A stretch of 64,000 bases of DNA from Bacteroidota bacterium (GTDB taxonomy: Bacteria > Bacteroidota > Bacteroidia > UKL13-3): positions 62,001-126,000 of the forward strand of contig CANJUD010000007.1 in assembly GCA_947477885.1 (NCBI GenBank), read 5' to 3'. The notes under the pieces are model-generated. The model saw only the letters and a list, made by a program, of their open reading frames with translations. It had not been told where the DNA came from and did not search any database. Position 1 is the stretch's first letter, and each line of letters opens with the position of its first letter. This document shows positions 28,080-31,168 of the stretch, one piece after another. The position numbers and the translations under genes were made by a program.

Positions 28080-29243
28080 ATGTTTTCAAATGAAGCCGTA
28101 AATTTAGCGTTACTGAAAGCACGAGCCTATAATTTGAGATGGGCAACGGTAAAAGATGGGGTTATTCCCTTGACAGCTGCCGACCCTGATTTTCCTTGTG
28201 CCCCAGAAATTTCAGAAGCAATTTGTTCATATTCAAAAGATCGGTATTTTTCCTATTCTCACCCTGAAGGACTTCCCGAATTTAAAGAAAGTATTGCCAA
28301 TTATTATATTCAAAAACGGGATGTTCCAGTATCGCCAGCCCACGCATTTCCTGTTGATAGTGCGGCATATGGTATTTATTTAACCTGTAAAGCTTTTTTA
28401 AAAAGCGGCGACGAAGCAATTATTTTCGATCCGGTTGATTTTCTCTTTAGATATTCGATTGAAACGGTGGGAGCAACTGCAATTTCTTTTTCGATTCCTC
28501 CAGGAAGTTTCAATATCGATTTTCTAGATTTAGAAAAGTTGATTACTAAAAACACGAAAATGATTTGTTTGTGTAATCCTTTAAATCCAACAGGAAAAGT
28601 GTTTTCAAAACAAGAATTATTGCGCTTGGGAACTATCGCTTGTAAATATAATTTGATAATTTTATCGGATGAAATCTGGAGTGATATTGTTTTTAAACCA
28701 AATGTTTTCACAAGCATAGCATCATTAAATTCAGATATAAGAAATAAAACCATTACAGTTACAGGATTTAGTAAGTCTTACGGATTGGCAGGCTTGCGCA
28801 TAGGAGCAGTTATAGCCCCCAACGATTCCTATTTTTCTAAACTAATGGATGCCTCTCTTCATCAATCTACCGTGCATGGTGCTAATATTTTATCTCAAAT
28901 AGCTGCAACAACAGCACTTACAAAATGCCAGTACTGGCTAGATGATTTTCTGGTGCATCTAACTAAAATGCGAGATATTACGGTAAAGGAATTAAACGCC
29001 ATTCCAAATTTCGAATGCATTGCACCACAGGGCTGCTATGTTGCTTTTACCAATATCAAAGCTACTCAAAAAACAAGTCAAGAAATCCAAGATATTTTGT
29101 TGAATAAGGCAAAAGTATTGGTTGTTCCGGGACTAAAGCAGTGGTTTGGCGATGGCGCGGAGGGCTATATCAGAATGAGTTTTGCAACATCTGAAGAAAT
29201 ATTGACAGATGCTTTATCAAGAATTAAAAAGGCAATGCTTTGA
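28080..29243 (+). CDS. PLP-dependent aminotransferase, class I/II fold
   Basis: A 387-residue fold-type I aminotransferase. Visible are PLTAADPDFPCAPEI near the start, NPLNPTGKVFS near 163, the PLP-facing Asp in LSDEIWSDIVF near 200, Schiff-base Lys in TGFSKSYGLAGLRIG near 231, and the carboxylate-binding Arg in GYIRMSFATS near 365. It resembles aspartate/aromatic aminotransferases and the MalY/PatB C-S lyases; the substrate cannot be read. Its stop overlaps the start of the flavoprotein-thioredoxin fusion gene, so the two are translated together. Codon texture (more ATT and fewer ATA/TATATA words) differs from the flanking genes, which fits recent acquisition. Confidence 0.88.
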   Translation: MFSNEAVNLALLKARAYNLRWATVKDGVIPLTAADPDFPCAPEISEAICSYSKDRYFSYSHPEGLPEFKESIANYYIQKRDVPVSPAHAFPVDSAAYGIYLTCKAFLKSGDEAIIFDPVDFLFRYSIETVGATAISFSIPPGSFNIDFLDLEKLITKNTKMICLCNPLNPTGKVFSKQELLRLGTIACKYNLIILSDEIWSDIVFKPNVFTSIASLNSDIRNKTITVTGFSKSYGLAGLRIGAVIAPNDSYFSKLMDASLHQSTVHGANILSQIAATTALTKCQYWLDDFLVHLTKMRDITVKELNAIPNFECIAPQGCYVAFTNIKATQKTSQEIQDILLNKAKVLVVPGLKQWFGDGAEGYIRMSFATSEEILTDALSRIKKAML

Positions 29244-31168
29244 AAGTTGTAATTATAGGTGGCGGTATAGCCGGACTTACAGCTGGAATACTGCTTAAAA
29301 ATAAAAAGTGGGAGGTTGTTATCAACGAAAAGGCGGATGGTATTTTTATCAGAGGTCACGCTTTTTTGATGAATGCTGATGGATTGCCAATTTTAAATGA
29401 ATTGTCCGATTCTTTGTCGATTGGATTGAATAAAAAGAAAATAAATATATTCAGTTTGAAGCGGCCTAGTGGGAACGAGTTAATTAAAATAAAATTGGAC
29501 TCATGGTATTGCATCAAACGTATTGATTTAATTTCTTTTTTGAACGAACATTTTCCAAAAGAATGTTTGAAACTAGGAAGAGAATTTTCTCATTTTATTT
29601 ATGAAAATAATAAAGCTATTGCGGCTGTTTTTAAAAATGGAGAAGTAGAATATGGCGATATTTTTATAGGTGCCGATGGAAGCAATTCAGCAGTGCGAAA
29701 GAATATCTTTGGAGAAACAGATTACTCACCTATTGAAGTTAAGGAAATTGTGGGTATTTCTAAAAAACAAATCTTAGCTATTGATGAGTTGACAATTTTT
29801 CATAAAATACAGCATGAAGAGAAAGGATTATCATTTGGATACATTCCTACATTCAATGATGAGTCGGTTTGGTTTATGCAATATGACGCTAAACTGGTTG
29901 AAAAAAACCAGGCAGATACGACAGATTTAAAGTCATTCTGCTACAAGACGCTTGAAAATTTTCCAAAAGAAGTTAAAGAGGTTTTAGATGCAAATAATTT
30001 TGAAAATACATATATATGGAACACAAGAGATTTTGATTTATTACCAACTTTCAATAGCAACAATGTGGTTTTAATAGGAGATGCAGCCCATTTAGCCTTG
30101 CCCTTTACTAGTGCGGGCACTACTAACGCCATTCTAGATGCAAAATGCTTGGTTGCTAGTTTAGATGAATCACAGGACTACCATGTAGCTTTTAAAAATT
30201 ACTACGATCGGAGGTCGGAAAGTATCGAAGAACACATAGAACTAGGAAGAGAAGTAAAAAAACTTTTTCTTTATCCTCAAAATTTTAGCGAACGGGATTT
30301 TTTATTGCCTTTGGTTTCTGAAACAAAAAATAATAAACAGCTGATAAATAAACCTTTAAAGGTCTTATATTTTACAGATCCTATTTGTTCAACATGTTGG
30401 TTAATTCAACCCATATTGCGAAAGCTTAAATTAGAATATGATGACTATTTAGATGTTGATTATAAAATGGGTGGTTTATTGCCTTCTTGGAAAGATTATA
30501 ATAGTGGGTTGATTAAAGAACCAACAGACGCGGCAAAACATTGGGAGGACATGAGTACTTTATACAAAACACCATTCGATGGCGATGTTTGGATTGAAGA
30601 CCCATTGGACTCCTCATACCCGCCATCCATTGCCTTTAAAGCAGCTCAACTGCAAAGTAAAGACAAAGCGGTTTTGTTTTTAAGGAGAATCAAAGAAATG
30701 GTTTTTTTAGAAAAAAAGAATATAACTAAAATGCAATTTATTGCAAATGCTGCGCTAAGCTGTGGGCTAGACTCTGCAGTTCTCCTTAAAGATATTCAAA
30801 CCAAAGCAATTGATCTCTTCAAAGAAGATTTAGAACTCGCCCAAGCTTATGAAATAACATCATTCCCCACCCTATTGTTTTCAAATGATTTAGACAAAAA
30901 AATAACGCTAAAAGGTATTCAGTCCTATGAAAAGTTTGAAGAAATTATTAAAGCGTTTATTCCGGGAGTTGTAAAAAAGAAAATTGAGATTGACCCCTTA
31001 TCTCTTTTTAAACTTTATAATATTATGACCGAACATGAGGTTTGTTTTTTTTATGATATAGATGCAGAAAAGGCTCAAAAATTACTGAGAGCTCTTTATA
31101 AACAGGGCGAAATAGAAAGGGCTGAAAGTAAGAATGGATTTTTTTGGAAACATACACCATCGCAGTAA
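29240..31168 (+). CDS. Fusion of FAD-dependent monooxygenase and DsbA/SpxH-like thioredoxin domain
   Basis: A single 642-residue frame with two parts. Residues 1 to about 365 form an FAD monooxygenase of the PHBH type: dinucleotide motif VIIGGGIAGLTAGI at the N-terminus, GADGSNSAVRK near 150 and the second FAD motif GDAAHLALPFTSAGTTNA near 280. From about 370 a DsbA-family domain begins with YFTDPICSTCW, with the active CxxC near 382-385, then GGLLPSW, DPLDSSYPPSIAFKA and the cis-proline-like SFPTLLFS; a short winged-helix-like tail (about 587-642) ends it. There is no ATG near the junction, so it is not two genes. The start is TTG at 29240, overlapping the aminotransferase stop. Substrate unknown. 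Confidence 0.87.
   Translation: MKVVIIGGGIAGLTAGILLKNKKWEVVINEKADGIFIRGHAFLMNADGLPILNELSDSLSIGLNKKKINIFSLKRPSGNELIKIKLDSWYCIKRIDLISFLNEHFPKECLKLGREFSHFIYENNKAIAAVFKNGEVEYGDIFIGADGSNSAVRKNIFGETDYSPIEVKEIVGISKKQILAIDELTIFHKIQHEEKGLSFGYIPTFNDESVWFMQYDAKLVEKNQADTTDLKSFCYKTLENFPKEVKEVLDANNFENTYIWNTRDFDLLPTFNSNNVVLIGDAAHLALPFTSAGTTNAILDAKCLVASLDESQDYHVAFKNYYDRRSESIEEHIELGREVKKLFLYPQNFSERDFLLPLVSETKNNKQLINKPLKVLYFTDPICSTCWLIQPILRKLKLEYDDYLDVDYKMGGLLPSWKDYNSGLIKEPTDAAKHWEDMSTLYKTPFDGDVWIEDPLDSSYPPSIAFKAAQLQSKDKAVLFLRRIKEMVFLEKKNITKMQFIANAALSCGLDSAVLLKDIQTKAIDLFKEDLELAQAYEITSFPTLLFSNDLDKKITLKGIQSYEKFEEIIKAFIPGVVKKKIEIDPLSLFKLYNIMTEHEVCFFYDIDAEKAQKLLRALYKQGEIERAESKNGFFWKHTPSQ

Follow-up and report, generated by a model that had tools for sequence, protein, structure and literature searches.

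A single open reading frame in the window (the whole 64,000-nt stretch of Bacteroidota DNA analysed here) fuses a class A FAD monooxygenase with an entire YjbH/SpxH domain, and in every fused locus examined the gene directly upstream encodes a PLP-dependent enzyme. We propose, with moderate confidence, that these two genes form a module that chemically modifies a small molecule, probably aromatic or derived from an amino acid, with the YjbH domain serving as a dedicated redox partner. The features that bear on this proposal are as follows.

28080..29243, + strand: PLP-dependent fold-type-I enzyme, MalY/PatB/aminotransferase-like (Aminotran_1_2, E 7e-51)
29240..31168, + strand: fusion ORF, 642 aa, TTG start, class A FAD monooxygenase plus YjbH/SpxH domain
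29240..30313, + strand: class A flavoprotein monooxygenase domain, residues 1-358 (FAD_binding_3; relatives Tet(50), HpxO and NicC; model match to HpxO 3rp8)
29258..29275, + strand: GxGxxG dinucleotide-binding motif, residues 7-12 (Gly 7, 9 and 12 invariant in 18 fusions)
29669..29698, + strand: DG motif GADGSNSAVR, residues 144-153 (D146, G147, S150 and R153 invariant)
30077..30130, + strand: GD motif GDAAHLALPFTSAGTTNA, residues 280-297 (near invariant across fusions)
30314..30340, + strand: interdomain linker, residues 359-367 (the sole model segment with pLDDT <50)
30347..30964, + strand: YjbH thioredoxin domain with helical insertion, residues about 370-575 (Thioredoxin_5; 6ghb match)
30386..30397, + strand: CSTC active site, residues 383-386 (unchanged in every fusion, whereas standalone and operonic relatives have CSSC)
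30995..31153, + strand: YjbH C-terminal winged-helix domain, residues about 586-638 (covered by the 6ghb match; helix-helix-helix-strand-strand in the model)

The 642-residue frame that the original prediction had described is present at 29240-31168, and its TTG start overlaps the TGA stop of the upstream PLP gene by 4 bp, an overlap found at the same position in most homologues. A promoter and terminator scan gave nothing above chance. Pfam places FAD_binding_3 at residues 2-308 (E 3e-14) and Thioredoxin_5 at residues 377-567 (E 1e-47), the latter within a complete YjbH/SpxH domain of about residues 370-638 that includes the winged-helix tail. An AlphaFold model built with 18 fused sequences as input reached a mean pLDDT of 85 and a pTM of 0.83, and in Foldseek its two halves matched separate proteins, the first HpxO and the tetracycline destructases and the second YjbH. 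The domains named from the letters alone are thus as predicted: the GxGxxG, GADG and GDAAH motifs of a PHBH-type flavoprotein are intact and invariant or nearly so in the 18 fused sequences, the DsbA-family, SpxH-like domain has its CSTC site, and the winged-helix-like tail is covered by a match to Geobacillus YjbH that runs end to end through it.

The fusion is rare, as had been suggested, yet recurrent and conserved. We collected 17 distinct full-length fusions from several Bacteroidota families, the others being 40-81% identical to the window's copy. Full-length fusions made up 11 of 97 relatives (own genome counted), and the fusion was present in 13 of 64 genomes of the window's order, one of the 13 cut by a contig end, and in 2 of 395 genomes spread over the phylum (the window's own again counted); further fused loci were found in the GTDB contig collection. 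A sequencing error or frameshift joining two genes, which would have undone the original prediction, is ruled out by the many fusions in independent genomes and by a dN/dS of about 0.06-0.13 in both halves, which are under purifying selection. In the tree the 17 distinct sequences form one clade (support 100/99), and because sequences from families f20 and f41 are interspersed among those of the window's family, horizontal transfer of the fusion between families is suggested. Outside Bacteroidota, we searched collections of plasmids, phages and viruses and scanned genome contigs once by pattern. Carriage as phage or plasmid cargo was rejected, as the plasmids, phages and viral contigs searched gave no match over the full length; the apparent 240-601 match on a Pontibacter plasmid (H2) is really two genes, a catalase and a DsbA-family protein. 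No earlier description of the fusion architecture was found in the open-access literature.

The C-terminal 275 aa matched Geobacillus YjbH (PDB 6ghb) with E 1e-42 over residues 3-272, and the corresponding half of the model gave a Foldseek TM by target of 0.90 over 273 columns. By full-length sequence and by fold (thioredoxin plus winged helix) it belongs to YjbH/SpxH, except that it is not a separate protein, being fused in all 17 distinct sequences; separate copies occur in Chryseobacterium-like operons and as solo genes. Besides the CSTC site, residue 390 sets the fusions apart, with Gln found only there and Glu in operonic and solo Bacteroidota relatives. Full-length homology to YjbH, winged helix included, would also fit retention of the Firmicutes role, in which the domain, as a protease-adaptor or protein-binding module, would present to ClpXP either the fused enzyme or some Spx/ArsC-like protein and couple regulation to the state of the flavin. 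One ArsC-related protein of this genome does exceed the threshold that NCBI sets for the Spx/MgsR family. However, its N-terminal part has a lone cysteine (KNCDTM) in place of a CxxC, and it also resembles a YffB-type reductase; the genome's other ArsC-like protein is an ordinary arsenate reductase, and no classical CxxC Spx was found in the genome, only ArsC/YffB-type proteins. Moreover, the cysteines are invariant in the fusions though YjbH cysteines are dispensable for Spx degradation in Bacillus subtilis and Staphylococcus aureus (PMC7253607). We regard an adaptor role as unlikely.

Several features of the unfused YjbH relatives were noted along the way. The standalone Bacteroidota genes are often divergent from an HxlR/DUF24-type regulator (L037, L039, L040, L044, L071, L072, L073, L145-L149); in Bacillus, YodB and other DUF24 regulators serve as sensors of quinones and thiol stress (PMC6943732). 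Going by their predicted starts, many of the standalone relatives begin with a hydrophobic leader of the lipoprotein type (for example L037 6959-7951, L040 6989-8002 and L145 3642-4643), and these same proteins have a conserved NPLLCDPxTGxC cysteine pair ahead of the CSSC domain. Export of these proteins would rule out a role as ClpXP adaptors, in spite of their annotation as "ClpXP adapter SpxH". Distant YjbH-like DsbA-family proteins (about 27-30% identity) were also seen on haloarchaeal plasmids (H9, H11, H14).

The N-terminal half has the GxGxxG, DG and GD motifs together with the fold of class A flavoprotein monooxygenases, enzymes that act on small, usually aromatic substrates. The nearest solved monooxygenases by sequence are Tet(50) and Tet(51) (E 9e-16), which, together with the patchy distribution among genomes, could be taken to indicate a drug- or toxin-inactivating enzyme of the tetracycline destructase type on a dispensable cassette. 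We consider this very unlikely: the NCBIfam tet_destruct model gave 73 bits against a cut-off of 550, the fold match (TM by target 0.81 to HpxO 3rp8) also covers HpxO, PhzS, NicC and TrlE, the plasmid and phage collections are without a full-length match, and the PLP partner is constant.

This partner is 385-390 aa long and 57-86% identical to the window's copy among the sequences aligned. Apart from the loci of close relatives, the fusion has no other generally conserved neighbour, and no substrate, regulator or transporter was consistently linked to it; in one genome (G241) the PLP gene occurs without the fusion, beside an EamA transporter. The enzyme did not reach the curated cut-off for any of the 25 NCBI families shown; for PatB (TIGR04350) the window's enzyme scored 226 bits and an unfused homologue 184.6, against a cut-off of 340. 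K232 and R365, corresponding to the lysine and carboxylate arginine of PatB, were invariant in 47 PLP-enzyme sequences, as were D120 and W200. Judged from these alignments and scores, the partner is PatB/aminotransferase-like, short of a confirmed PatB; because it lies below all these cut-offs and has an unusual active site, we use only this name and assign no reaction. At two loci (L024 5631-6000, L025 5630-6000) a 370-bp gap containing no intact gene separates the PLP gene from the fusion; inspection by eye shows the 3´ end of the PLP gene repeated there in degenerate form, a sign of local duplication at the operon junction.

The same activities also occur as separate genes. In family f21, in genus g34, which we take to be Chryseobacterium, the PLP enzyme follows a separate monooxygenase of 358-386 aa that is 27% identical to the fused one, and this pair was found in all 11 of the wider regions first examined. 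The GD motif of unfused homologues reads GDAAHxxIPFTSxGxTxA. In fifteen f21 genomes the monooxygenase is closely preceded by a separate, co-oriented YjbH gene (contiguous in 14, interrupted in one), giving the order YjbH, monooxygenase, PLP enzyme, as against PLP enzyme, monooxygenase-YjbH in the fused loci. The operonic YjbH sequences form one clade (100/100) and the fused ones another (100/99); because the grouping of the two clades is weakly supported (82), one or two association events are possible on this tree. Other YjbH genes in the phylum are solo genes, several of them in divergent orientation to an HxlR-type regulator. Many unfused monooxygenase-PLP pairs are without an adjacent YjbH, and some genomes with the pair (G301, G355) show no close YjbH anywhere. 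While the domains, tail and rarity recognised by the original prediction stand, both the constant PLP partner and this unfused three-gene version had been overlooked. We also noted that a PLP decarboxylase (His/Tyr decarboxylase-like) on the opposite strand interrupts the YjbH-monooxygenase-PLP operon at L137 (4161-5402) and that at L113 the monooxygenase has upstream of it an ORF whose N-terminus is similar. A TonB-dependent receptor directly follows the unfused pair at several loci (L069 9336-11786, L113-L115, L117, L120, L126), possibly for uptake of a substrate or product.

The occurrence of YjbH as a neighbouring gene also bears on whether the fused domain could be mainly a structural or oligomerisation module with an incidental redox site. 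Such a role has been proposed for the thioredoxin-like C-terminal domain of phenol hydroxylase and HbpA. In class A monooxygenases such as HbpA this domain, of unknown function, takes part in contacts with a neighbouring monomer (PMC4515095). A separate YjbH would, however, be needless for a purely intramolecular scaffold; in addition, CSTC is invariant, and the domain belongs to a different family, the fusion having Thioredoxin_5 where the phenol-hydroxylase C-terminal domain gave no Pfam match, which places it outside the HbpA subgroup. A mainly structural role seems doubtful to us.

Because the same three activities occur in two arrangements, fused or adjacent, it is likely that the three proteins are functionally linked, in an undescribed small-molecule pathway. 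From what is known of the families, the class A flavin domain would hydroxylate the substrate at the expense of NAD(P)H and O2, and either before or after hydroxylation the PLP enzyme would act on an amino-acid-bearing form. More tentatively, the YjbH domain would sit next to the flavin enzyme as a redox partner, and not as an adaptor that hands Spx to ClpXP, and its CSTC pair might act on the substrate, product or partner by disulfide or sulfenate reduction or by thiol-adduct exchange on an electrophilic product. This thiol step is the least certain part of the module. It is favoured by the conservation of CSTC and by the probable presence of bacillithiol, since the genome encodes the bacillithiol enzyme BshC and a low-molecular-weight thiol is therefore likely to be present. 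It is weakened by the monooxygenase-PLP pairs without YjbH; as some of these have no close YjbH, the domain is not always needed. In addition, if there was a single association event, the fused and operonic YjbH may not be independent evidence, and conservation of the CxxC can be structural or inherited, solo relatives keeping CSSC too. The oxidation coupled to thiol/disulfide chemistry that was originally envisaged is thus plausible, and strengthened by the invariant CSTC and the unfused operons, with the substrate and reaction only inferred. We also considered a new sulfur-handling pathway, in which the flavin domain would make an electrophile, YjbH would add, exchange or reduce a thiol and the PLP enzyme would cleave a cysteine conjugate. 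This seems improbable; if true, the YjbH domain would catalyse small-molecule chemistry, whether alongside a part in protease adaptation or instead of it.

The known role of YjbH is that of a protease adaptor, and some species can do without its cysteines; it may or may not perform redox catalysis. Its fusion and operonic association with a flavin monooxygenase and a PLP enzyme place it in a specific enzymatic setting that can be tested, point to a small module, so far undescribed, among environmental Bacteroidota and suggest that the annotation "ClpXP adapter SpxH family" may mislead on function in this phylum.

Each component resembles a known system and departs from it. The PLP partner shares with the PatB/MalY C-S lyases and class I aminotransferases the fold, the PLP lysine, Asp197, Asn166, Arg240 and the carboxylate Arg365. 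It differs at two sites, named here by the residue roles usual for the fold: Asp120 replaces the aromatic residue that would stack on the PLP ring, and Trp200 stands where the DEI(H/Y) motif has His/Tyr; aligned relatives show Y/F/W and H/Y at these positions. The monooxygenase half shares the GxGxxG, DG and GD motifs and the predicted fold with HpxO, Tet(X)/Tet(50), NicC and PhzS, but with just 18-21% structural-alignment identity. Its GD motif runs on as LPFTSAGTTNA, whereas the usual class A continuation is GQGxN, and a C-terminal YjbH domain is added. That domain resembles Firmicutes YjbH/SpxH (6ghb, 6gho) throughout its 270 aa, including the helical insertion, winged helix, CxxC and conserved proline region, but sits behind a flavoenzyme. 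Finally, enzymes of the phenol hydroxylase/HbpA type have the same gross order, a monooxygenase followed by a thioredoxin-fold domain, while the fusion differs from them in its thioredoxin family, its intact CxxC and its winged helix.
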